NCBI RefSeq assembly: GCF_037975245.1
Contig: NC_092570.1
Coordinates: 12,563,001-12,627,000 of the forward strand
Source of the DNA: Apostichopus japonicus
Taxonomy: Eukaryota > Echinodermata > Holothuroidea > Aspidochirotida > Stichopodidae
Length of the DNA stretch: 64,000 nt
Direction of reading: 5' to 3'
Part shown: positions 48,107 to 63,800 of the stretch, one piece after another
Layout of the letters: the number at the start of each line of letters is the position of its first letter
How positions within the stretch are numbered: position 1 is the stretch's first letter
Notes under the pieces: model-generated
Databases searched by the model: none
Seen by the model: the letters and a program-made list of their open reading frames with translations, nothing else
What the model was told of the DNA's origin: nothing
Position numbers and translations under genes: made by a program

Positions 48107-48399
48107 TCTAACTTTGTTTCGATGACCGTGACTTATCTTTTTTTCCCAAAATTTCTTCGGAAATGACACATTAACTCCATTAAATAGTAAAAATATATAA
48201 ACCGTTACAGGAAACAAGTGGATTTGCTAGGTCATGTAGCTATGGGTACAAAAACGTTGATTTATAAAGTCCTTTCGTCAAAGAATATAAATGATATCAA
48301 TTTTAACTTAAGAAGCATAGCTGCAGATTTTGATGGTTCATTTGACGATAACTTTTTGTCGATATCGTCGCAGGCAAGACCTATACACTGCCATTTGAA

Positions 48400-48525
48400 A
48401 TGGCGTTACCCAGTAGAAGGTATTCGACTGTGATATTTATCTTAAGTTCTTTGATGCTCTTCGTCTGTGTTTCCAGTCGAGCTATTAAAAATGGAGAAGA
48501 AACGGAAAGGGAACGGCGTGCTATC
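48400..48525 (+). CDS. Glycine-rich gene A exon 1 (signal peptide)
   Basis: Forty-two codons ending phase 0 at ATC|GTAATG. The Arg-rich start, 15-residue hydrophobic core and small residues after it fit a cleaved secretion signal. Confidence 0.65.
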
Positions 48526-48598
48526 GTAATGAAATACTGGGTTTGTACAAGGTTTTCTTATCTAATGTTACTTGATAAATAAATGTAGTATGTTTATT

Positions 48599-48695
<97 letters not shown>

Positions 48696-51600
48696 TAGAT
48701 AGATAGATATAGATATAAATATATATATATACATATATATATATATTTACATACATATATATTTATTTAACCAATGCCGGTATAAGTTTTTTTTGTTAGA
48801 GAGAGAGGGGGGGTTGGGGAGGGGGTCGGCCTGGGGATGAAGATGAATTGTATATGCTAGGTGGCTTGGGGGACGTGGGAAAGGAAAAGGTATGTCCCAC
48901 TGTCCTTTGAGAAAACGCAGAGTGCCCAATGTCCGGTTGACAGAGCGAAATATAAATGAGAACTAGTTGAGACTAGTGGAACACTAAAGTGGAACGCATG
49001 CCTGTACAAGTTTTTTTTTTTGTTAGAGAGAGAGAGGGCGTTGGGGGAGGGGGTCGGCCTGGGGATGTTAGATGAATTGTATATGTTAGGTGGCCTGGGG
49101 GACGTGTGAAAGGAAAAGGTATGTCCCACTGTCCTTTGAGAATTAATTGTATAAATAAGGCTTCTTGAATGCGAAAAGAACATTTATTTCAAGAAATATT
49201 AAATACCGTCGGTAGACCAAACATTCTCTTAATTTTGTTGAAAACGATGAAACTGTTAGGCATGAAACTTTACACATCACATTCATCACATTACAAATAT
49301 ATACTTCAAGAAAGGTTTCGAAAATTTTGTACAGGCGTGTAATTGCTAATTAATTATCAATAATGCAGGCAGACTACGTTTTGTTAGTTTTGAAATTATT
49401 GACTTTTTATTTTCTAAATTCACTGACTTAGTCTTCTATCCTCTGTTATGTGGTGCCTGCATGCTTTGGTCTGAAACATCTACAAAGATTTAAAGATGCA
49501 TTCAAAAATGTCAAATTCACATTAACATTTTAGAAAAACAACAACATTGAACTTAGTAGTGTACCCTTTATATTACTTAATTGTAAAATGTTATTTTCCT
49601 TGTAACTTATGGAAATTTGCCCAAGAAGTCGGCCGTCAATCTGACCACAGAATTTAGCTGAACAAAGATTGGAAAACTCACCAAATGTGAATTTAAAGTG
49701 AATTGAACGAAATACGTAAAACATGGGAATTTCTTGGTTAATTTGTGTATATTTGTTTTGTTTTTTCGTGTGTGTGGGTGCGTGTGTGCGTGTGTGTGTG
49801 GTTGTGTGTGTGTGTACGTTCGCAGCCAAGGAATACCCCTCGCCCACCCCTTTGTCCGGCATGCATGCCAGCCATCATCAGTGGTATGATACCTATGATC
49901 AAAAACGTCCCCAAGCAGCTAAGTGCATTGTTATGCTAATTGCAAGGTACAACAATTGTATTGTTCCTTCACAGACAAGACGAAGACTTGAGCAAGTCTA
50001 ACTATGATTTCCTCGAGTCACATATATATCAAGTTTTATAAGTTGTCTTTCTTTTCTTTTTTTGCTCTCTTTCTTGTAAAATGCAGTTTGAAAATGCTGA
50101 ACTAAAATTATAAAGTTTTAAACATGACTGATAATTTCAGTGTCGATAGTAAAGTCACATTGAAAGTATGATAAGACAAAGTTAGAGTACATGTTTCCAC
50201 CTTCTAACACTAAGACAGCACACATCACACAAAATGGCAGCTCGCAGACATGGTTTTAGGATTTCAATCAAACGGAAGCAAAAATTGGCTGTTTTGGGAG
50301 TTATTTATAACAATTACGTTTATGATATAACAGGTGCGTATCCAGGGGGGGGCGTTGGGGGCGCGCGCCCCCCGGGTAAGGAAAAGAGGAGAGAAAAAAG
50401 AGAAGAAAAAAGGGAAAAGGAGGGGGAAAAAAGAAAAGGAGGAGAGGAAGGAAGGGAAAAGAAAAAGAAAAAAGAGAGAAAAAGGAGAAAAGGAGGGAGT
50501 AGAAGATAGCCAAGGCCTCGGGAAGAGAAAGAGGAACAGTCATAGTTAAAGCGCTGATCCCTATTATACACACAGGGTAGCCAGTGACAGATCAAGGATT
50601 ACGGAGGGGGTGTGCGCCTCACCCTACCCCTTACACCGACATCTCCATTTTTGACGTTTCTATTTTTCCTCTCTCACTAATGTATCTATATAAATACTAT
50701 ATATGGTTTATCATAACGCCTGTGTGTGTATGGACGCCTTAAACAATTGTACAATTGTGCTATATGGAACCAACTGTGGCTGGTCTTGAACTCGACCGAG
50801 TCGAGTTCAAGAACATGACGCATTTTGGGAAGGGGGCGACCGCCCCCCCCCGAGCAAATTTTCTTTATGACATCGCTAGTAATTTCAAAATATACAATGC
50901 TTAGATGCAACATACAAGGCCTGGAAAGTGTCATTTCCAGCGATCTGGGAGGCATTTTCAGCCAAAATTTTTAATGTTCGCTTCGCGCCAACTCATGGTG
51001 GCGCTTCGCTTAGATATTTTGCTTACAGGCTTCGCCCCTCCCTTGGCAATTACTCGCTACACGCCTGTTCGAATTTGTAAAGCAAAGAGCATATATAACA
51101 TCATATCAGTGAGCAATGCATGCATGTTCCACGATGAACAGCCTCAAAAACTGTCTATGTGTGTAGTCAAAGGCGTAGGAGCCCAATTGGATTTGGGGGC
51201 TGTAATGACTTGCCCGAAAAAAAGCCCAAATTTTTCGCGCGCAAAGCGCGCGTTTAGCATATCGATGCCAATATCATATAAGCAAGCATCGGTCATTACA
51301 TTGCATGGCATAGTGTACCTTACGGTCCGTGAAAGTCGCACATTATACCGCCGGATGCTAATGTAAACAACCAAATGTCTTATGTAGATGGAGAAAAAGC
51401 ATACAGATCCATTTATGTCAAAACTCTCTTTTACAGTAGTAATGTCGGCCAAGCTTACAACTTTATTTTAATTACCAAGGAGATCATTTTTAAGCTATTC
51501 ATTGCTATTTATTTTTCTTTCAGTAGGTGCCCGACAAAGTGGGAAAAATTTGGTTGCGGGGGGGGGGGGGGGCTGCAGCCCCCGCCTCCTACGGGACCTA

Positions 51601-53577
51601 CGCCTATGTGTGTAATGTTCGGTTTCGATATACCTGATATCGGAAATATCTGCTATTTTTCGTTTCCTTCAACCAAGTTTTATAAAAGCCATTATAAGAG
51701 GTTTTAATATTTCTACACCAAGAAATTAACTGTGTCGGAATTTTCCAAAATTTCCTCACCAACATTCTTCATCATACTTTCCTCTACTCGTGCAATTTTG
51801 ACCTGTCTGTTAGGGGTTCAAGGAGGTTTTTCTATATTGCTTGTCCATAGATTGAATTTTGTGCAACATTATGGATATGTTTTGAAGTGATTTTATTCAC
51901 GAGAAATTTGAATTTTCAAATTCTCAACAAATAATGGGCTTAAAACCTTCAAAAGTGGGGCTTTCGGATATTGTGGGCCGTGACGTAGAACCACCTACAA
52001 AAGCAATGATCCATAGGACATGCAATGAGGTCGAACATGGTGTGTGACTGGTGACAATCTTCAAAAAGGTTATGGATGGAAAAAAAACTTTTGGGAAATA
52101 CTTGGTTATCAGGCAAAAGTGTACATCTGGTTGGTCATTTTCAAGCCCGATAAGTGCCATTTCCGGTGATCTGGGGGGTATCAAAACCAGAAATTTTCTT
52201 GTACGCTCCGCGCCAACCGATGGTGGCGCTCCGCTTAGATAGTAATTCGCGCCCCCCGGGTTAGAAAATCCTGGATACGCGCCTGTATAAAGTATCATCT
52301 CAAGAAGTTGTTTGGGTTGGTGTCTACTTTAAGTAGGCAATTATCGACTGTAGTCTTCGATACCATAGTAGGACGATAATCACTAACAGATGAAATGTGT
52401 CGCGCCCTCATTAATTCATTTAGTTTTTGGTTGTAAGATTAGCCTCTCCTGTGTGGATACTTCAAGCTCGTTACGCACGTTGAGTATTCTGACTGCGCAA
52501 TTTTTACCACGATTGCGTCATCAATGCGATTCTATGATATCCTTCTTCAGCTGATGAGGATAACTTAAATTCATGAGGAGACATTCTTTATACGCTTACA
52601 TTTGACCAGATATAGAATTGTTTTTGTGTTTGCAGATTGACAGACGTGTCAATGATGGACCAATCGCAGATCCAGAAGGTGGATGCCTGGACTGTGCAAC
52701 CGGCGAAAATACCGGTGGCCAAACTGATCATACAACTTCTCGAGGTGGAATGAAGCGACCCAATGATGATGGTCACAGACGTGGAGGAGGAGGCGGTGGT
52801 GGAGGTGGAGGAGGTGGTGGCGGTGGAGCAGGCGGTGGGGGAGGGGGTGGTGGAGCAGGAGGTGGAGGTGGTAGAGGTGGAAATGGAAGACCAGGTGCTA
52901 TGGGGGCGGCAGGAGGGAAAGGCCGCCCTGGAGCTGACGGAGGTGCCGGAGGAGGAGGTGGTGCCGGAGGTGGAGGGGGTGGCGGAGGTGCTGGTGGAGG
53001 CGGAGGAGGTGGCGGTGCAGGAGCTGGTGGAGGTGGAGGCGGTGCAGGGGCTGGTGGAGGTGGAGGCGGTGCTGGGGGAGGAGGAGGTGGAGGCGCAGGA
53101 GGTGGGGGAGCTGCTGGTGGTGGTGGAGGAGGTGGAGGAGGAGGTGGTGGAGGTGGTGGCGGTACAAATGGTCATGTCGATGTTAATACTGACAATGGCG
53201 AAATAACACCCTCCATACCTGCTGATAGACATGAACCCGGAGGAGGGCCCGCAATGGGTGGTCATCACGGGCCAGGAGGGCGCACGCCTCACGGTGGTCA
53301 TCACGGTCCCGGGGGTCGCACGCCAGGTGGCCGTCACCATGGACCAGGTGGTCGCACTCCTGGTGGAGGTCACCATGGACCAGGTGGTCGCACTCCTGGT
53401 GGACGTCACCATGGACCAGGTGGTCGCACACCAGGTGGACGTCACCATGGACCAGGTGGTCGCACACCAGGTGGACGTCACCATGGACCAGGTGGTCGCA
53501 CACCAGGTGGCCGTCACCACGGACCCGGAGGTCGTACCCCTAAAGGTAAAAAGCCCAAGAAACACGGTCGCCATTGA
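48400..53577 (+). CDS. Secreted glycine-rich protein A, 2 exons, 355 aa
   Basis: Exons 48400-48525 and 52636-53577 join in phase 0. Exon 1 is a signal peptide: positive MALPSRRYS, hydrophobic TVIFILSSLMLFVCV, then SSRA, followed by an acidic stretch ending in RERR, a possible basic cleavage site. Exon 2 starts IDRRVNDG, holds a CLDC cysteine pair, then long polyglycine tracts with scattered Ala, a collagen-like stretch GRPGAMGAAGGKGRPGADG, a spacer with TNGHVDVNTDNGEITPS, eight copies of HHGPGGRTP (12-residue period) and a basic end GKKPKKHGRH. AATAAA lies at 53712-53717, 135 bp after the stop. The likely role is an extracellular structural or matrix protein; no known family was recognised. 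The donor GCTATC|GTAATG is weak, so the exon join is the least certain part. The nearest relative in the window is glycine-rich gene B. Confidence 0.72.
48604..48760. repeat. AT microsatellite with AGAT tail
   Basis: About 90 bp of alternating AT, then ATAGATAGATAGATAG and further AT runs, in the intron of glycine-rich gene A. Confidence 0.97.
48778..49142. repeat. Two-copy direct repeat, about 135 bp per copy, 228 bp apart
   Basis: Both copies contain TTTTTTTTGTTAGAGAGAGA, GGGTCGGCCTGGGGATG and GGAAAAGGTATGTCCCACTG then TCCTTTGAGAA, with scattered differences. They are at 48784-48912 and 49012-49142. Confidence 0.88.
50376..50506 (+). repeat. Polypurine tract, about 130 bp
   Basis: Almost only A and G (AAGAGGAGAGAAAAAAGAGA and similar) with no pyrimidine interruptions over most of its length. 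Short ORFs through it are composition artefacts. Confidence 0.95.
51166..51604. mobile_element. Nested TIR element flanked by a 10-bp direct repeat
   Basis: TATGTGTGTA flanks both sides (51156-51165 and 51605-51614). The ends GGCGTAGGAGCCC (left, starting 6 bp in) and GGGACCTACGCC (right) are inverted, with a 14-G tract just inside the right end. It sits inside the larger element at 50335-52287. Confidence 0.6.
52636..53577 (+). CDS. Glycine-rich gene A exon 2
   Basis: The acceptor is TTGTTTTTGTGTTTGCAG. It encodes 313 residues in one open frame, dominated by GGN codons. The stop TGA is followed by a polyA signal at 53712. Confidence 0.85.
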   Translation: MDRRVNDGPIADPEGGCLDCATGENTGGQTDHTTSRGGMKRPNDDGHRRGGGGGGGGGGGGGGGAGGGGGGGGAGGGGGRGGNGRPGAMGAAGGKGRPGADGGAGGGGGAGGGGGGGGAGGGGGGGGAGAGGGGGGAGAGGGGGGAGGGGGGGAGGGGAAGGGGGGGGGGGGGGGGTNGHVDVNTDNGEITPSIPADRHEPGGGPAMGGHHGPGGRTPHGGHHGPGGRTPGGRHHGPGGRTPGGGHHGPGGRTPGGRHHGPGGRTPGGRHHGPGGRTPGGRHHGPGGRTPGGRHHGPGGRTPKGKKPKKHGRH

Positions 53578-53711
53578 TTGGGACATTTTATCAATCGTGT
53601 AGTAAAATTGTCTGGAATATAATAGCATAGAATGTATCTGTAAAATATAAAACGACAGACTGACAGGGGGCCTGTTTACACGTGACCCAGATCTATACCT
53701 GGGAGCTTCAA

Positions 53712-53717
53712 AATAAA
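53712..53717 (+). terminator. PolyA signal AATAAA of glycine-rich gene A
   Basis: Canonical AATAAA 135 bp after the stop codon of exon 2, in the right place and strand for 3' end formation. Confidence 0.6.
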
Positions 53718-54930
53718 GTAACAACAAAAATTCCGAATTAAATTTGTAAAACGAAAAAAAAAACAACAAGAAAACCTTTGCCTAGTAACGTACTATACCC
53801 TGCTGTTTCCTGTTTTTGTAAACATATAAGATGATACTGCTCTTCTCAAGGTTCAACACTATACTGCCATCTTCAAATCATTTTGTCTTTTGGAGACATT
53901 TAATTGTCAAAGGTAAATCTGTTTCTGACAATACCTTTGAGAATCTGCGATACGGTATTTCGCAGCGGTGACCAATTCTTTTCGTAATCAAATTGGGAGG
54001 GGGGGGGGGGGGTACAGATGAGCTTGGCAGTAGGCTATGGCAGTTACTATAGTATAGTAATAGTAACGTTATATCCTAGTTTATAAGCATTTAAGATGCT
54101 ACTGCTCTTTTGAAGGTTCCAGTAAATATTTTAATATTATCAACAAAACATTAAGAAATGTTAAAAAAACATTACTGTTTGTAACTTGAATAAGATTGCA
54201 TGGTATCTGCTCCTCAGAAATGGAAAATTCTTTCTAACGACATTGTAACTAAACTTGCCACATTTTGTACCGTTGTTTTTGTAAGATGTTAAAAATAAAT
54301 ATCCTTTTGTTAGACATTTCTATGCCCTGCAATTCAATGTGTGTTCTTAGAGTGTCAACGAAATAAATTCGGCAAAATTTGGCATTTCGATTGCTGTAGA
54401 ACTTATAATAACGCTACAACTATTAACGTCTATGAAAAAGCTTTATAAATGATGGCATTATCAATATTGCATTTTGCTGGAGTTTGTGTTGATTTTTGTC
54501 AAATATTGGACAATAATAAATCTATAAAATGCTATGTTCATCGTTTATTTTACCGCTACGTTGTATGCTTTGACATGTTCAACCTCTTCAGAACGGTTTC
54601 CATTCTCCTAAATACTACTATGACAAACTACGGTTCAATAAGACAAATATGAGAATTTTTCATTGAATGAGCAGAATTCATTAAACATTTGTTAATTAAT
54701 GTCCATGTAGTCACAAACCCCTAAGAATGGCTTATCGGCTCCTAAATAAAGAGATTATCTTAAAATGATCTATATGGAATTTCAACTGATAAACGAGAAG
54801 AATTTAGATTTTCATGCAACACTCTACTTTATTAGTAAAGAATTGGTATTTTCAGACGAGGGTGATAACATTTAGGTACGCTTTACGAAACATCTATTGT
54901 CAATCAAACCAGCTGGTAAAACTTATCGAT

Positions 54931-55356
54931 CAATGGCGGAGCTAGGGGTACTAGTCGGGGGGGGGGGGCGAAATGGTCTGTAGGGGCGCTTTCGACACTA
55001 TCTAAGCGGAGCGCCACCATATGTTGGCGCGGAGCGTACAGAAATTATTTGAGTAAAGATACTCCTTAGATCGCCGGAAATGACCCTTTCCGAGCCTTGC
55101 TAATTTGGAAATAGTTTCATACAACGGAAGTGCCGATAAATTAAAGACCGCTGTTAGAAAATTGTTGTCAGAAAATTACACCAACAAAATGTGACAAATG
55201 TCAATAGGTAGATGAGAGCGCAATAAAAAAGTCAATAATCGCGAATAAGTAAAAAGTGGTAAAAAGCGGAAAAGGGCGCCAGCAGTTCATTTGAGTCCGT
55301 CGGGGTGGGGGGGGGGGGGGGGTTCCGCCCCTGACTGTATGGACGCTCCGCCACTG
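54931..55356. mobile_element. hAT-like element, 426 bp
   Basis: The left end CAATGGCGGAGCTAGG and right end GGACGCTCCGCCACTG are inverted. The candidate 8-bp duplication is imperfect (TTATCGAT versus ATCTTGAT). G tracts of 13 and more lie inside both ends. It shares an internal block (ATCTAAGCGGAGCGCCACCA) in inverted orientation with the elements at 50930-51060 and 52150-52250. Confidence 0.7.
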
Positions 55357-57381
55357 ATCTTGATAGGTCCTATATATGAACTCTGTACATATGAATTGTA
55401 AAGCTTACAATATACCTTCAAAACGAACCCTTCACCTAACTTAGTTTGAATATATATAAATTGTCGGAATTTTATGTGTCATCAGCCAATTGGCATCGAT
55501 AGTACTATGTAGGCTACTATTAACATTAAACACACATAGTAATACCTTTGGGTATTGTGGCTGAAGTTGATTGCTTTATAAATATGCTGGAAATTTTCTC
55601 CATCTTCGCGTCAAAAACTTCATAGCATTTATCTGACGAAGATATGAATTATTTAAAGTTTATGGTATTTTGTGGATGCATCTGGCAACAGCAGCGTGAA
55701 TGACGTCATCATAACAATTTAGCTGAAAATTTGTTGTTTTCTTTTTTAATAATTAACTCTCTTATTCATTAAGTGAAAAACAAATTATACAAATAAAAAG
55801 TCAGTTATATGGAATTCTACAGAGATTCAATCACTACTATAGTCGCTTTAATGGATACAGCAATATTCACCAAACTCACCATCATTAGTCCCCTTCCCCC
55901 CTCTCCCTGGGGTAAAAACTAACCCCAACAGACATGGGACTCAAAGAAACTCAAACACAGTCATGAGGAGGCTTTATTTATTGCAGACGTTTTAAGTGAC
56001 ATAAAAGTTAACTTTACTGTTTAATGGTAAAGAGCGAAAAGTATGATTATGGAGATAGAGACAGATACAGAAATTGTGAACATTGTTTGTGATTTGGCTC
56101 AAATATTTTTGCACGATAAATGAAGGATTGGGGCTAATTTATACAAAGCTAATTAACACATCCCTGCGTTAAGGTATGTGGTGGCGTCCTTCCAATTGCA
56201 AAATTTACAATTGAGTTAACACATGACACGACAACCTCACAATATTTTACAACGCTTGTTTACTGTGTAGTAATTGCGTTGTAACTTTAAATTACATTAT
56301 TGCGAATATAAGGCTCTCTGAAGTTTCTCATCGGTACCGCCCTCTAATATGCAAGTCAAATACAAGTAACTTCTTTGCCAACTGCAACAGCCACTGTCAG
56401 AGTGGTCTCTCCTTCGCCATGCCTAAATTGGTCTACCTCACCACTAGGAAGGGTTTAGCATCTTCAGGAAAATTCATTCGAAAGCTTTGCAATAATTTAT
56501 CAGATTTTTTTGGCGGCAACTTATTCGACAGGATTATCATACCTTTTAAAGCTTGGTCCTGTTTACTAACTTCTGACAATAAAGTTGACACTCATCCCCA
56601 TACATCACACCCATCGCTCGAAGGATTCCGCGACAACAGTATCTTTGAAAATAGCTCATATCTAATTTGTACATAGCGCCAGCAGTTCATTTCCTCCAAC
56701 CGTTGCTAAGACCGCATTACCAGTTTGTTCATTGTGGTCATACCAAGTACACACATTTGGCGTAAAATCAGAGTGTAATGTCAGAAATTTGCACCTTGAT
56801 GGTGCAGAAAAGAAGAAGAGAAGGGTGGGGGGGGGGGGTGGAATGGAAGGCGTAGTATTGGGTCACAAAAAAGTTAGATCCAAGTACGAGAATTGGGGAT
56901 TAGAGTTGGTGATAGTTTGAAAAGGTCTAGAGTTTAGGTTGTGGGTCGGGGTAGGAAGGGGATTATATTGGCGCACTCCAAGGACAGAAAAAACAGACAT
57001 TGAGAACAGCATCGAGTATACACAACATAGTAACTCGACTGACAACTTTCGTATTATTGTATAGATTGTTCCGGCTAAATTAATTCGCTACAACGGCTTG
57101 TATGGTGTATGATGTAAAATTGCACGATGATATGAGACTCCAAATGATGCAGTGTTTATCAATAAATTTGTCTTACTTTGCTGCTTTTCTACTGCCCTAA
57201 TGAAAGGCAACGGAGAGAGGTGAAAGTACGAAGAAAGAAATGAAGGAAATTCAAGGACAATTCTCAATGAGGCAGGAATTATATAAAGCTGTTAGGCTTC
57301 CTTACCAATATTTAAACTACCAATATCAATTATTTTGATGAAGATATACACCAGTCAGTTAAGTACCTACATTCCCAATTA

Positions 57382-57387
57382 TTTATT
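57382..57387 (-). terminator. PolyA signal AATAAA of glycine-rich gene B
   Basis: TTTATT on the plus strand is AATAAA on the minus strand, 55 bp past the gene B stop codon. Confidence 0.6.
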
Positions 57388-57441
57388 TCTTGCGTTTGGT
57401 GAGATGTTTAAGAAATATATCTTGGATTAAAATGGAAGCTC

Positions 57442-58245
57442 TTAGACTGGTGAGTCAACTTCCCGATCTAAATCTACATCACGTCTGCGTCGCCTGCTGC
57501 TGTGACTACCTCGTCTTCTACTTCCATGGCTTCCTCTACTGCGACCGTGACTCCGGCTTCCACTGCGACGGCTGCTGCCCCCGAAATTTGGAATGACAAT
57601 GGGAGGTCGAGGAACAAATACCGGTGGTGATGGACCAGGTCTAGGAAACGATGGTCTTTGAGGAGGATTGCTTGGAACAGGTCTGTTAAATGGAGGTCTG
57701 TTGATCGGTGGTCTGTTAACCGGTGGCCTGTTGATCGGTGGTCTGTTAACCGGTGGCCTGTTGATCGGTGGTCTGTTGATCGGTGGCCTGTTGATCGGTG
57801 GCCTGTTGATCGGTGGCCTGTTGATCGGTGGTCTGTTGAGTGGTGGTCGACGTACAGGCGGACGGTTGGGAGGAAAAGGGTTTCGACCACCCCCAGGCCC
57901 ACTCGGTCCACTTGGTCCATTGGGTCCTCTGGATCCTCCGTTACCTCCATTACCTCCGCCTCCGCCTGCACCACCGCCTCCTCCTCCTCCACCTCCACCT
58001 CCACCTCCTCCGCCACCTCCACCTCCACCTCCTCCTCCTCCACCACCTCCTCCGCCACCTCCTCCACCACCTCCGCCGCCTCCTCCTCCGCCTCCACCTC
58101 CTCCTCCTCCTCCTCCGCCACCACCGCCGCCTCCTCCTCCACCGCCTCCACCACCGCCTCCACCACCGCCTCCTTCTTCGCTACTACTGTGGAAAAGTTT
58201 GTGAAGCCAAGAAAATATTCTCTTGTCTACGTTTTGGTCCTCGAG
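57442..58245 (-). CDS. Glycine-rich gene B exon 2
   Basis: The acceptor is TTTTATTTGCCAACAG. The frame stays open for 267 codons on the minus strand with meaningful NRPP repeats. The same DNA gives polyproline (+) and poly-Glu/Val (-) in the other frames, which are shadows. Confidence 0.85.
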   Translation of the reverse strand, partial: LEDQNVDKRIFSWLHKLFHSSSEEGGGGGGGGGGGGGGGGGGGGGGGGGGGGGGGGGGGGGGGGGGGGGGGGGGGGGGGGGGGGGGGGGGGGAGGGGGNGGNGGSRGPNGPSGPSGPGGGRNPFPPNRPPVRRPPLNRPPINRPPINRPPINRPPINRPPINRPPVNRPPINRPPVNRPPINRPPFNRPVPSNPPQRPSFPRPGPSPPVFVPRPPIVIPNFGGSSRRSGSRSHGRSRGSHGSRRRGSHSSRRRRRDVDLDREVDSPV

Positions 58246-60824
58246 CTGTTGGCAAATAAAATTGGAGCATATAATAAGTAACTTGATCTTTTTGGCTACA
58301 AAGTTTTGTTATTTAGTTTAAGTATTTTGTTATTGTTTGAATCCCTTCCGCTTTATCCAGTTAGACGCTCTATTTATAAATGCAGGATGGCAGCGATGTG
58401 GTGACGTGTGTCTAGAAGGGTCAGTTTAGTTAATGCAACAGGTTATCATATGACATCGCACTCATGATTATCCAAACCATCTATGAGACAGAGACATTAT
58501 TCATGGGTTACCATTTAGATCTTCTTTTCTTCAAGTTTCGTTTTGTGTTGATCTTTGTTTAACCATCCTATGTAGATTGATAGACTTTCTTGAATTTGCT
58601 GATGATAACCCCCCCCCCCCCCCACCCCTCTTATATTTTATGGACAATTCGATTCAGCTGCAACAAATCATCGTCGGCACTAAAGCCAATAACTTATTAA
58701 ACCAAAGCCCCAGCTTCACATTGAATAAATTTATTATTTGAAATTGGTCCATCAAGGTAAGGAAAATATCCTAACAATGAAATAATGTCTCTCAAAATAC
58801 ACACGGTAAAAAACCCAAGAGGACAATGACAATGAATTTATTATTGCTGTTCCATAAATGTGCGATATAATTACACACCATGTCACTACATACTGTTAGG
58901 GTGTCGAGGTTAGCAACATTTGTTTCCTCCTAAGAACTCGGTGTGTAGGCCTACTTGTTGTGATGTTAGTAATATTCAAAGTTTGCGTTTAGGTTAGATT
59001 ATCAAATAAAGAACATTCACGCTTAATAGGTACTCTCTCTAAGGTTGACATTAAAATATACTTAAAAACTGTTTACAGGGTGACCATTCTTAGTTGGGAC
59101 AATGTGTTTTAGTGCTTAAATGTGTTAGACATAACATCATCCCATTTGTTCACACGATTCAGTCGTCATAATGGAGCAGAGCTGATTATGGGGTAAATAT
59201 TTGAATTAATCTCCAATTAACCCTCTTTTCACACATCTGCCTTCATGTAGACTTAATTGTGCTAAATAAGGACTCTTCCAATGTTCTGTTTAGTTCAACT
59301 CAATTCATTTATTTGTGTTATCGCCAATTGTGTACAATGGGAAAGGAAGTCTCCTATAAAGTTTTAAAAAGATTTAACAAGGTAGGAGACTCCCTGGGAG
59401 AAAAGGAAAGAAAAATGTACAAATATAATACAGCATATACTGTACGTATGGATTAATTATACAGTAATAATATCCTAATGATGCTGAGATGAATACGTGA
59501 ATAGATCATATAATACTAGTACGAGTTAATAAATTCCTTTTTTTCAGATGTCTGGTGAATGTGGGTTTTGAAAGTATAGACTTCAACTTTTTGGATAGAT
59601 CATTCCAAATTTGTATTGCTCTATTACGAAGACCAAATTTCCCTATATGTTACTATGGTAAAAATTGCAATGAGCGTTGACGGCTTTTCTTGTGTGATGG
59701 TTATGTAAGACTCTGTTACTACATATTAAAGTCATTAAAAGTGACTGGCAGTAATCCATTCCGCATGCTTTGTAAGCAAAGGTAGCAACCTTGACTGTTA
59801 TAATACCACCAAGTTTTAATAAATTTAGGGACTTAAATATTCCACTAGTATGTTGTTTGATTATATTTTTTAATTGTGACGATAAACTACATCTGTATTA
59901 CGGGGTCTCTATTAAGATGATTAAAATGACCAAACCTGGTACGGTAGAGATGTCAGCATTAGTTGGTAATTAAACAGGTTCTTATTAACGTTACAATAAA
60001 CTCAATGATCAGAAAATAATAATGTAATTTTTCTAAAGAGCGTTATCGACTTTGATTGATACGGAGTATTAAAGCAGTGCTATAGCGTTTGTCCGTACTA
60101 TATGTTACTTTATATATCTTCATTTCACTCTCAGGGGGGGGGGGGGGGCGCAAGGGTGGGAGGTGGGGTGGAGGCATAAATCACCACCGTCGTCAGTTGG
60201 GGTAGGTAAAAGTTTCATTCGGAAAGTTTTTATATCAATCGGAGAAGAATTAGATCAATTATTCGGTCCCAGGACGCCTTCCATCAAGGTTCATGTCCCT
60301 ATCTAAATCATTCCGAGTGGGGTGGGGGGCTAGAATTTGGTCCCCATCTTTAAAGTCCTCTGCACGTCACTGCTCTACATTTTATACAATAATTTCATAC
60401 GTCATAATGGGACAACATTATGCTTATCCCCTGGAAGAATCTTGTACAAGAGTGATGAATAAATTGTTTTCAATTTCGTAATTTATATGTTCGCACGCAT
60501 GACTTTATGAGAAGTACACGGACTTAATTATGTGTGCGTACACCATATATATGGGTGTACATGGTATATATATATTTAATATGCGCGCATACTAGAAGGA
60601 GGCCAAATTCTCTCTTAAGTATCATCTATATTAATTAGGCGTCGTATGCAGATAGAACACAAACAAGTGTCAAATTGGTGCGGGACCATCAAAAACAAGG
60701 TTAATTTATAAAACAGAAATGACCATACCTCTGGATTCAGTTCTAGCTCACTCCTGACAGTTCCCACAAAATAGGCCAACAGGATCCCGACCAGAAGGGC
60801 TCTTGTCAAATTTCCTGGTCCCAT
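57442..60824 (-). CDS. Secreted glycine-rich protein B, 2 exons, 299 aa
   Basis: Minus-strand exons 60729-60824 and 57442-58245 join in phase 0. Exon 1 is a signal peptide: MGPGNLTR, core ALLVGILLAYFVGTV, then RSELELNPE. Exon 2 begins LEDQNVDKR, a dibasic site, then IFSWLHKLFHSSSEE and a long polyglycine run, a collagen-like stretch NGGSRGPNGPSGPSGPGGGR, about eleven N-R-P-P-[IVLF] pentads, a Pro-rich segment (QRPSFPRPGPSPPVFVPRPP) and an Arg/Ser/Gly-rich tail ending RRRRRDVDLDREVDSPV. The architecture parallels gene A, which points toward it. It is likely an extracellular structural protein; no known family was recognised. A TATTTAAAG at 60939-60947 could be the TATA element and AATAAA lies at 57382. 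A second acceptor (CCACAG at 58187) exists but is out of phase with exon 1. An in-frame upstream Met (60842) is possible. Confidence 0.72.
60729..60824 (-). CDS. Glycine-rich gene B exon 1 (signal peptide)
   Basis: Thirty-two codons ending CCAGAG|GTATGG, phase 0. The hydrophobic core is 15 residues long and a cleavage after the TVRS region is plausible. Confidence 0.7.
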
Positions 60825-63800
60825 TTTTTCTTCTCTTTGCAAGTCCGTGCGTTCCTTCCAATGATGACTGGAATCAACCGTCGCTCAACTCGGTATGAAA
60901 TTCGGGTCGCATAGTGAGTCACAATCAACTTATTCTAACTTTAAATACCGTATTCTGAATGAGAGATGGTTCCAATTTCCTGTTCCACTATTAAGACGAT
61001 GTGGTGTCTCGTTCCAATTAATTATTGTAAGCCATTTATGGTTTACTTTGTTCGAATCGTAAACGGAAATTCGGACGTTTAATATAACACTTGGAAACTA
61101 TGGAAAGGAATAGGCTATCAAACTTAACGAATGCTGCAGTGCGCAGGCGCATAAACAAAAGACCGGGGGGGGGGGTATGCGGGCAGGGCGGTCGTCATGG
61201 AACGCCAATGTGGTATTGAAGGATTCAAAAGTACTTTTGCAAATGTCTGCGATCTAATTCATATTTTAGAACCTTAAAAAGAATCACACCGCCATTATTG
61301 CCTCCTTTCCTGTTAACACATTACTCATACGGTCTGATTTCTTGTTTAGTATAAACTTTACACAATGCGTGGTGATCCAAAATGAGCGTTCACACATACT
61401 CAGTCTGTGATATTCCCCTGTCACAAAAAAATATATAAATAAAATATTAGAAATATAATTTCTTTTAGTTCTCTCTAGAATAGCTACTCTTGAGAGTCTG
61501 ACACGGCACATTTGCATTGGCCAACGTTGGAGGGGGGGGGGGGGGTGGGGCTTACATGGCCCTTCTTATTGCCTCATTGAGACGCTGGTTTCTCATTTGC
61601 CGATACCTATACTCACTTGCTGTTCCCTAATCTATGCTCGTGTGCGTCAGTAACGGGTAATAGCCCACAGAGAACAGTGACAGGTTTACATCCAAGGAAG
61701 ATGGCCGAAGATTCGTTATTCGTATATCATGATTGACATGATCTACTCCATTAGATGTATACATGGTCGAGTTATCTACCTTCAAGGAGAGAAGTACTAC
61801 CCCCCCCCCCCTTCCTCCTCCAGTCGTCAACATAGAAGTGTGTGATTGCGAAGCTTGTGATTAAAATATCTCTCCAAAAATAAATTAACGTTATTTCCAT
61901 TTGAGAGATACCATATTTTTGATTATTTTTGATTATTTCATAAATAAAACACTAACGAATGAATACTTTCAAAGAATTACAGCAACTAACTATTATTTCT
62001 TCAATTTGTAATCTGTTTTGTGTTCATTACAATTCATTACTAGTTGTTTATTTGCTAACAATGACGTCATTAATAATACTAATAATAAAAAAATAATAAT
62101 AAAAGCAGCATACGCAACGATCGCACAGGGGAAATTCTTTATAATTCCAAAGATGGTAGTATATAAACAAAACATTTTACATCCAAACACTTTGTAAGCT
62201 AATATGAAAGATTTGTTAATATCTGAGAAGGCCCTGTCAAATTCAAAGTAAAAACTTTTGAGCTTGTCTGTGATTTTCTGCAATTAAGTTTAGTCAAACA
62301 AGTCAACAATTGATTACGACACTGAGGCAACTTCTCTCACGTTATCACCAAAATGAGCGTTAATGAGTGAGAAATTAAATAATTTAATTCAACTTCTCAA
62401 TATTTGTTTCCTGGATCTTCTTCTTAAAGTATCAATCAAAGTTTGAAGCAAATTAAAAAATCTCAATGCCTTTGATTTTTATATTTGAAAAATGAGACAT
62501 GCCTGACCAACATCTACATTCATATACAAATTCATATAACAACAATTAAAATTATAAAGCAATAAAATTTAGCACCGAAATGTTTCCATGATAGGCAGTT
62601 AAATAGGTGATGTAATGTCAATACACGGTTATCGTGCCAAGCTGTCATGAAACGGTTATCGTGCCAAGCTGCCATGCATGTAAATAAAATGTAATGTAAT
62701 ACAATGTGTAAAAATAAATGCGAACACAGTCTAGGGCTCCAATCCTTCAAAACTCCTTTGTAAAATCAGAAACGTTCTTGACCCCGGAAATAGCCGTTCT
62801 ACATATTTGTGTTTGGCGATGGTCTAAACTATCAAGTTTGCAGGTGGTCGGCGGAAAAGCACGTGCCGAGATTTCCAATCACCTAACATTCGAGGGCATT
62901 CGGATATATATTCAGAACTATTCCATAATTAATTCGGGCCTTTCTCTTATTCTTTCAATCTATAGGTTCTCACAAACAGTTTCTGGTCTCATAAAAATAG
63001 TCATTGTTTAAAAAAAGTATCCATACATAGATTTTTAAATGGCTCTCTCTGGCTTATAGAAGGAGGACGATACGGCTTACAAACGCCCTTGAATAAATTA
63101 TGTTGCTAGTGTGCGTATATATGTATTAGTTTCGTTCTGTGAGAGGAAACGTCTAACATATTGACTATAGACTGGCGAGGCTTCTCGAGATGTTATCAGC
63201 GTTCCGTATTCGACATTTAAAATACCAATTAAACTTGACTGATATGTGATGTAAAGAAAACTACAGCTGTCTTGTACGTTTAAGCTTAATTGTTAATGCT
63301 AACGCTTTAGAATTATAAGTGCACTTTAAACTTGACATTTGAACTTACTTGGACAAAATGGAAGCAATTATAAGGAGAGGCAAATTGCAGGTGTCCTTGT
63401 AAAATGGTAAAAATGCTATTTGATATCTCATTAAGGTCTTCTTTTTTTTTCGTGTTTTTGCTTTTTGCTCCTGAAAAATTGAGTTAATAATCTGATATAC
63501 CCATTTTCCTCGTCAGTTGCGTCACCCTACCCCCCTCCCCCCCCTCCCCCTCCGAAATAAAATACGATACACACACAAACGCTGAAATTGATGACCGTAT
63601 ATAGATACATTATATGTGTTTATTATTTTAAGGGTAAATTGTGGGTTGAAAACACAGTTATAACACTGCACTGTTTACCAGGCTTCCCTGTATAAAGTAC
63701 CTGTTCCACCCCCTCTATCGTGACGTCATTTATTATTAACGTCAATGATCGCCAAGGATAGAGGTGACTTTCAAATTATTTTTGTCCCCGATCGAATCTT

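Follow-up and report, generated by a model that had tools for sequence, protein, structure and literature searches.

Results

The window, a 64,000-nucleotide stretch of Apostichopus japonicus DNA, holds two predicted genes, A and B, on opposite strands (Table 1). The gene models and layout proposed in a first-pass annotation were confirmed: both exon joins are in phase 0, the gene ends lie 3.9 kb apart, and the two genes share a plan of a signal-type exon, a phase-0 intron and a large exon with basic sites and polyglycine. The secretion claimed for both products is borne out by hydropathy, and is in that sense predicted. Interspersed repeats lie within both introns, near 50326-50400 in gene A and near 59302-59854 in gene B.

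Table 1. Predicted features of genes A and B, in window positions (gene B, its exons and its intron in the direction of the gene)
Feature	Position	Strand	Description
Gene A	48400-53577	+	predicted product 360 aa, two exons
Gene A, TATA-like box TATAAAGT	48263..48270	+	137 bp 5' of start codon
Gene A, exon 1	48400-48540	+	47 aa; start codon, hydrophobic signal segment, RERR-type basic site
Gene A, intron	48541-52635	+	4095 bp, GT..AG
Gene A, exon 2	52636-53577	+	basic sites, Gly/Ala-rich polyglycine tract of 127 aa, then repeats, tail, stop
Gene B	60824-57442	-	predicted product 299 aa, two exons
Gene B, TATA-like box TTTAAAGT	60938..60945	-	121 bp 5' of start codon; kept in B'
Gene B, exon 1	60824-60729	-	32 aa; start codon, signal segment, donor GAG/GTATGG
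Gene B, intron	60728-58246	-	2483 bp
Gene B, exon 2	58245-57442	-	LEDQNVDKR / IFSWLHKLFHSSSEE head, 68-glycine run, 8 Gly-X-Y triplets, pentads, tail, stop

The first exon of gene A has a single match in the genome, its own locus, and ends at a phase-0 donor at 48541; because a second in-frame, phase-0 donor (GTAATG) is found at 48526, this exon may end at 48525 instead. The exon join of gene A is predicted from the splice sites themselves, and that of gene B is additionally backed by a paralogue (B', below). After its polyglycine, exon 2 of gene A encodes 9 Gly-X-Y triplets, 8 HHGPGGRTP units and a KGKKPKKHGRH tail before the stop codon, and the codon pattern of HHGPGGRTP has 8 exact matches genome-wide, all of them in gene A. 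The pentads of gene B, read from the translation, comprise 11 NRPP[IVF] units and one RRPPL, and the C-terminal part consists of a Ser/Arg/His tail ending in RRRRR, then an acidic 12-mer and the stop codon. The gene-specific repeats described earlier are present, with the RRPPL unit of gene B departing from the pattern. The stretch that had been called collagen-like is also there, and the label is a weak one: with so few triplets, some of them with glycine at X or Y, and no Pfam collagen match for A or B at E values up to 1, collagen identity was ruled out. Glycine is encoded with all four third bases in gene A and with three in gene B, and mixed glycine codons occur in all five tracts counted (A-E).

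As a chance control, each large exon was resampled 500 times with a first-order Markov model. None of the 500 resamplings of either exon was open over the full length, and the longest open stretches reached 273 of 313 codons for A and 264 of 268 for B, so that an open frame is by itself weak evidence, particularly for B. Glycine runs in the resamplings were no longer than 8 for A and 6 for B, against 16 and 68 observed, and this excess is strong evidence. In a control for polyglycine density, no frame with 30/60 glycines was found in 18 other loci (57,646 bases), a small sample in which 7 loci lie at a repeat and 11 are similarity matches, many of them overlapping. G-rich tandem arrays are present in the DNA, and a GGEGR minisatellite of this region has three open frames yet is not a gene.

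The first-pass annotation treated A and B as a pair; instead, they form the left end of a predicted cluster of about six genes (A-F) that spans ~73 kb on both strands, with C-F beyond the 64-kb window. The tail-to-tail arrangement of A and B is therefore one neighbor relation among several. Examination of 148 kb to the left of A and of 42 kb to the right of F gave no further polyglycine genes. A Gal-3-O-sulfotransferase gene lies beside the cluster. The predicted plan shared by A-F is a hydrophobic first exon, a phase-0 join and a later exon that encodes polyglycine and basic sites; gene E has one exon more, three in all, with a second intron in phase 1, and the glycine exon of gene F changes frame twice, leaving a broken frame that may mark a pseudogene, a polymorphism or an assembly error. 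Phase 0 throughout the cluster is partly a matter of choice, since for C, D and F the first exon was selected among several candidates so that its phase suited the exon that follows. A rival first exon of D (12638902) was set aside, having neither a TATA-like box nor the APL motif; it has the better donor, GTAAGT, and the decision was made post hoc. A TATA-like box lies at -155 to -115 in five of the six cluster genes, compared with 586 of 5000 random ATGs, in a window fixed after the positions were seen. All six genes have dibasic sites within the propeptide segment. The propeptides are acidic and the mature parts strongly cationic in B, D and E, the propeptides of A and C are not acidic, and A, C, D and E have His-rich segments.

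First exons were compared in all 15 pairs against 2000 shuffles each. Similarity exceeded that of the shuffles (at most 40/2000 as high) in five pairs (D-F, E-F, A-F, A-E and D-E), and the remaining ten gave no clear similarity. When used to search the genome, the large exon of C matched D (E 2e-21), mostly over polyglycine. In the opposite direction, a search with D at E values up to 1 failed to recover C; the match between the C and D tails was scored without composition correction and without a low-complexity filter. Since whole-genome searches discount biased composition, relatives of the cluster elsewhere may be missed.

A close paralogue of gene B, B', is found on another contig. It keeps the start codon, donor, acceptor and frame of B, which supports the B exon join, together with 29 of the 32 amino acids of exon 1, 22 of 24 residues of the second head, 14 of 15 residues of the IFSWLHKLFHSSSEE segment and 45 of 46 glycine codons. 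Between these 45 shared codons there are 20 third-base differences and none at the first or second base, which suggests that the polyglycine of B has been kept as protein. Codons 70 (Arg) and 71 (stop) of B' are changed at position 1 relative to B. Repeat slippage is an alternative way to keep GGN units in the two copies. The collagen-like, NRPP and basic-tail region of B is missing from B'; thus, either some copies can do without these parts or B' is decaying, and tail turnover does occur in the family.

The earlier remark that no described family is recognizable held for the libraries searched. With A and B, Pfam gave nothing besides a sub-threshold match of B to Extensin_1 (PF02095; score 48.9, cut-off 105) over its proline-rich part, residues 157-250, and NCBIfam gave no matches. 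Pfam searches with the heads and tails of C-F, excluding the D tail and the polyglycine parts, gave only sub-threshold matches for the F and D heads, among them GRP (PF07172) to the first 74 residues of F (score 19.9, cut-off 30). A PDB sequence search at E values up to 1 returned 17 matches for A and 42 for B, nearly all over glycine-rich stretches; many are engineered fusion or single-chain proteins, and we read these matches as linkers. No description of this gene family was found among the papers listed in searches of the open-licence literature, and one preprint on holothurian gene families carries no mention of glycine, collagen, mucin, silk, orphans or novel gene families.

Discussion

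The reading toward which we lean is that A-F and B' encode secreted, processed, silk-like structural proteins of the body-wall matrix, cuticle, mucus or adhesive, and the structural role suggested in the first-pass annotation stands as the leading interpretation. The chain would enter the secretory pathway, where furin-like proteases would remove the N-terminal propeptide (acidic in B, D, E and F) and, in B, C and E, the C-terminal segment that follows an Arg-rich site. The polyglycine blocks of many chains could next assemble laterally as polyproline-II (polyglycine-II) helices. Such packing of glycine-rich helices is known from other proteins (PMC8409303), and here the head, aromatic or helical, would perhaps help to nucleate it. 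Possible ligands of the cationic His/Ser/Arg/Lys segments are acidic partners (for example sulfated glycans or mucins), surfaces, and metal, the last via histidine. What results would be a secreted structural material that is insoluble. The paralogues would differ mainly in the segment attached to a common polyglycine core. More speculatively, and as something we entertain only tentatively, the cluster could be a dedicated source of a deuterostome "polyglycine silk", in which selected, near-pure glycine blocks (up to 68 residues) crystallize as polyglycine-II once the propeptides are removed and adhesion is tuned by exchangeable blocks of cationic, His/Ser-rich, Pro-rich or mucin-like type. 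This would be a modular holothurian biomaterial, independent of arthropod silks.

The main rival, which we consider unlikely, is that the products are secreted immune effectors, organized like the sea-urchin 185/333 (SpTransformer) genes and acting on microbes rather than building material. As described, 185/333 genes have two exons, a leader of 51 or 54 nt and a second exon of 771-1431 nt (PMC1988830), and stand in closely linked arrays, of mixed orientation according to their authors' unpublished data (PMC1988830, PMC3091723). The plan of a leader exon, one intron and a large, repeat-bearing second exon recurs in A and B, and the genes here are likewise clustered, whereas E has three exons. 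His-rich segments in A, C, D and E would also suit an immune role, and the predictor of silk-like structural proteins discussed below caught the 185/333 family as well, via its glycine-rich region (PMC4944945). Against these likenesses, 185/333 genes are <2 kb with introns of 380-413 nt (PMC1988830), and the introns here measure 4095 and 2483 bp in genes that exceed that size; 185/333 genes and their flanks are mutually similar (PMC3091723), whereas no pair of flanks matches here; and glycine runs of 40-68 are not mentioned in the excerpts on 185/333 genes drawn from PMC1988830 and PMC3091723. On these published descriptions, intron and gene size and the lack of mutual similarity set the cluster apart. 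Were the products immune effectors after all, a sea-urchin gene plan would be extended to holothurians.

It is very improbable that the genes encode precursors of antimicrobial or signaling peptides, with a short amphipathic segment of the IFSWLHKLFHSSSEE type, running from the dibasic site to the polyglycine, as the active product and the rest as carrier. The DKR site directly before IFSWLHKLFHSSSEE in B, the near identity of this segment in B' and the dibasic sites in all six propeptide segments fit such a scheme, but the heads of A, C, D and F bear no clear likeness to that of B, each precursor would yield a single such peptide, and the glycine codons are kept in both B and B'.

The first-pass annotation also proposed an inverted duplication as the shared origin of A and B, with later divergence by repeat turnover. 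The common layout, the tail-to-tail position and the loss of a tail between B and B' are in its favor, but we regard this origin as highly doubtful. The A and B loci show no meaningful DNA match (best 28 bp, E 0.003), and among the 15 first-exon pairs compared theirs is the least similar, with 1713 of 2000 shuffles scoring as high. No pair among the 12 flanks (six 5' and six 3', in gene orientation, with the low-complexity filter on) matches at E 0.01. Inverted duplication is thus not supported, since A and B share no detectable sequence, and four further predicted genes have the same layout. Hardly credible is the reading as non-coding GGN/CCN minisatellites open by luck, with signal exons arisen by chance: the G-rich arrays, the nearby GGEGR minisatellite and the near-complete openness of random sequence of B composition speak for it, but glycine runs of 16 and 68 were never approached in 500 resamplings each, B' keeps both exons and their splice sites, with GG at the first two codon positions, and we rule out a chance or microsatellite origin on these runs and the B/B' codon pattern, openness being insufficient.

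To our knowledge, long homopolymeric glycine is rare in secreted animal proteins and is chemically hard to handle; polyglycine also yields no peptides on tryptic digestion. In B', which consists of signal, head and polyglycine only, there may be a natural test of polyglycine alone in secreted material. Polyglycine genes would be easily lost in annotation, having no domains, the look of GC-rich repeats and a short exon far from a low-complexity one. A cluster of structural proteins would also be of practical interest, as this sea cucumber is farmed and the texture of its body wall is economically important. A. japonicus is not known to have a Cuvierian organ.

Several known systems invite comparison with the silk-like reading. 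The Cuvierian organ outer-layer proteins of Holothuria leucospilota, compared by description, are predicted to be beta/amyloid rather than polyglycine, and the three near-consecutive numbers of their genes may imply a cluster (PMC12472103). An A. japonicus "glycine-rich protein", PIK60693.1, has been named as a triple-helix-domain protein (PMC7599334); also compared by description, it shares the species, the glycine richness and an extracellular label, and may or may not belong to the cluster. Silk-like structural proteins are a convergent class defined by composition, with a signal peptide, no later transmembrane domain, at least 25% glycine in an 80-residue window and a place in a material (PMC4944945). 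In A, B and C, the genes tested, glycine reaches 81%, 96% and 92% of such a window; by hydropathy, used as a surrogate, the N-terminal 19-residue maximum is 2.19, 1.63 and 1.97, and the maximum beyond residue 30 is 0.18, 0.38 and -0.17. These three are thus like that class in their signal-type N-terminus, high glycine, repeats and lack of a further hydropathic transmembrane segment, and unlike it, as far as its description goes, in polyglycine that is near-pure over as many as 68 residues, in propeptides that carry basic sites and in strongly cationic tails. Glycine-rich polyproline-II helices are found in the snow flea antifreeze protein, a phage spike tip and Obg (PMC8409303), and polyglycine-II nanodomains in some spider silks (PMC7584646). 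The long glycine segments of the cluster would be expected to form such helices, a likeness of sequence type, in uninterrupted runs far longer than the six and seven glycines of the phage tip.

Results

Genes A and B, two genes for glycine-rich, predicted secreted proteins on opposite strands, belong to a real and under-described cluster of predicted secreted polyglycine precursors, A to F. Re-reading of exons and introns upheld both first-pass gene models; the pair they were taken to form gives way to a larger group, with four more polyglycine loci (C to F) to the right, beyond the window. A 264-kb scan around the window for frames with at least 18 glycines in 60 residues returned the large exons of A and B, these four loci and three frames not counted as genes: a GGEGR minisatellite (C10 12630845-12631357), an Arg/Glu/Gly low-complexity frame (C10 12632261-12632626) and the antisense frame of B's repeat, which passes the glycine threshold. 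Since the minisatellite is open in all three forward frames, open glycine-rich frames alone do not amount to genes. No further polyglycine frame was found in the 148 kb left of A or the 42 kb right of F. To the left of the cluster lies a Gal-3-O-sulfotransferase-like open frame (C10 12551107-12552081; 125 bits against a cut-off of 27), a possible synteny anchor, and to the right an Ig-domain frame.

Features of the cluster genes and of B', the paralogue of B
Feature	Numbering	Position	Strand	Status
Gene A exon 1	window	48400-48540	+	predicted model
Gene A intron	window	48541-52635	+	predicted model
Gene A exon 2	window	52636-53577	+	predicted model
Gene B exon 1	window	60824-60729	-	predicted model
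Gene B intron	window	60728-58246	-	predicted model
Gene B exon 2	window	58245-57442	-	predicted model
Gene C first exon	C10	12633446	+	predicted
Gene C second exon	C10	12635746-12637008	+	predicted
Gene D first exon, most likely	C10	12639427	+	predicted
Gene D second exon	C10	12647702-12648934	+	predicted
Gene E, three exons	C10	12667944-12672498	-	
Gene E first exon	C10	12672498	-	predicted
Gene E middle exon, 35 aa	C10	near 12670677	-	predicted
Gene E last exon	C10	to about 12667944	-	predicted
Gene F first exon	C10	12684721	-	predicted
Gene F second exon	C10	from 12680014	-	predicted
Gene F, two frame changes	C10	12678477-12680014	-	
B' locus	C16	23628004-23632900		
B' first exon	C16	23628004-23628099		
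B' second exon	C16	begins 23632489		

The predicted proteins of A and B have 360 residues (44% glycine) and 299 residues; if splicing used a second phase-0 donor, at 48526, exon 1 of A would lose five residues. A has polyadenylation-type signals 137 and 162 bases from its stop codon, and B has one 57 bases from its own. In 500 first-order Markov resamplings of each large exon none was as open as the observed one, but open length alone is weak evidence because resamplings reached 273 of 313 codons (A) and 264 of 268 (B). The glycine runs, 16 in A and 68 in B against resampled maxima of 8 and 6, are strong evidence against chance. Third bases of the glycine codons are mixed in both tracts (A: 42 A, 40 T, 11 C, 8 G; B: 37 A, 22 T, 14 C). 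Both introns carry interspersed repeats, at window 59302-59854 in B (85-91% identity to at least 39 other genome places among 40 scored candidates) and 50326-50400 in A (at least 40 other places).

All six first exons encode a hydrophobic segment and have a phase-0 3' end, those of C, D and F having been picked from several candidates to suit the next exon's phase. In the second exon of C, polyglycine interrupted by 11 NT pairs precedes an SHSHGK-type tail; that of D has NN and NT spacers and a Ser/His/Lys/Arg tail. The polyglycine of F has NN spacers, and its reading frame changes twice, through pseudogenization, polymorphism or assembly error. In the last exon of E, repeats of KSGGK and of SHSHGKSHDHSGSKGSKESGS occur with two glycine blocks (113 glycines) and with a mucin-like array of PTTKVPTTVPTTTV. 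The single chain of E contains Lys/Ser/Gly repeats alongside His/Ser ones, polyglycine, and mucin-like Thr/Pro repeats in an array.

B' shares with B 29 of 32 first-exon residues, 302 of 373 aligned bases across the segment spanning the TATTTAAAG box, start codon and donor, and, behind a conserved acceptor, 22 of 24 residues of the head, the part of the large exon before the polyglycine. B' supports the predicted exon join of B without RNA, since this second locus retains the two exons in the same order and phase, together with their splice sites. Of 46 polyglycine codons counted as far as the B' stop, B and B' both encode glycine at 45; these codons differ at 20 third positions and are identical throughout at the first two. 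Non-coding divergence is 4/36 in the last intron bases and 34/167 aligned columns, one of them a gap, for the 3' flank; rates of 11-20% predict about 10 to 18 changes over the 90 first and second positions of the 45 codons. Their absence is good evidence that the polyglycine is selected as protein, with the limit that repeat slippage could keep GGN units too. In B', codon 70 encodes Arg and codon 71 is a stop codon, each through a position-1 change. B' terminates straight after the glycines, without the short collagen-like Gly-X-Y stretch, the NRPP pentad repeat or the basic tail, whether as a minimal polyglycine gene or as a copy in decay.

Whole-genome searches (671,581,487 bases in 35 contigs; G+C of the window 38.9%) used scoring that penalises biased composition, so the relatives counted are lower bounds. 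Results are for the first exons of A and D and for large exons or pieces of A, B, C, D and F. The large exon of D, the first piece of F and both first exons matched only themselves. Exon 2 of A returned its own locus plus 21 weak low-complexity matches (best E 3e-4); exon 2 of B returned its own locus, B' and a single weak match on C6 (E 2e-4). A tandem repeat at C17 16498947-16500467, weakly matching A's repeat, is open for more than 530 codons on both strands. The large exon of C found D at E 2e-21, mostly through polyglycine; C was absent from the matches of D's large exon at E up to 1.

When all 15 first-exon pairs were each compared with 2000 composition-keeping shuffles, D-F, E-F, A-F, A-E and D-E were equalled or outscored by only 16 to 40; the remaining ten showed no such excess, A-B being poorest (1713/2000). 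No pair of genes matches in its 5' or 3' flanks. A TATA-like box lies 115-155 bp upstream of the start in five of six genes (all but E) against 586 of 5000 random ATGs, an interval set post hoc with positions already seen. From these results, common descent is likely for D, E and F, and perhaps extends to A; C is plausibly related to D, by its tail. B is linked to the cluster genes by plan and position only.

Discussion

Layout, intron phase, basic sites and charge of the cluster proteins can be read directly from the sequence. Computed charges of propeptide and mature part are -4 and +31 for B and 0 and +18 for A; propeptide and tail give -3 and +23 for D and +4 and +10 for C, the propeptide and basic block of E -9 and +37, and the propeptide of F -5. 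The proteins would be secreted and could undergo furin-like trimming at both ends of the chain, and the polyglycine may pack side by side as polyproline-II helices, a packing documented for other glycine-rich proteins (PMC8409303); some spider silks contain polyglycine-II nanodomains (PMC7584646). Cationic His/Ser parts could bind acidic glycans, surfaces or metals, with matrix, cuticle, mucus or glue as candidate end products. A structural material is the best supported of the readings, function being judged from sequence.

The three genes tested, A, B and C, fit the sequence criteria published for silk-like structural proteins (PMC4944945), with 81%, 96% and 92% glycine in their best 80-residue windows and signal and membrane features judged by hydropathy rather than SignalP or TMHMM; the class is convergent, so membership indicates what they work like, not their descent. 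The sea-urchin 185/333 immune genes, as described (PMC1988830, PMC3091723) rather than by sequence, resemble the cluster in leader-exon plan and clustering but differ in gene size, intron size and mutual similarity. Although A and B had been called collagen-like, domain search and triplet reading indicate that they are not collagens. The 2017 A. japonicus genome paper reports 13,103 orphan genes, and its main text makes no mention of glycine (PMC5638244). A published A. japonicus "glycine-rich protein" with a triple-helix label, PIK60693.1 (PMC7599334), may, from its description rather than its sequence, be the product of one cluster gene. At the same level of description, the outer-layer proteins of holothurian Cuvierian organs (PMC12472103) offer a parallel to the cluster proteins.
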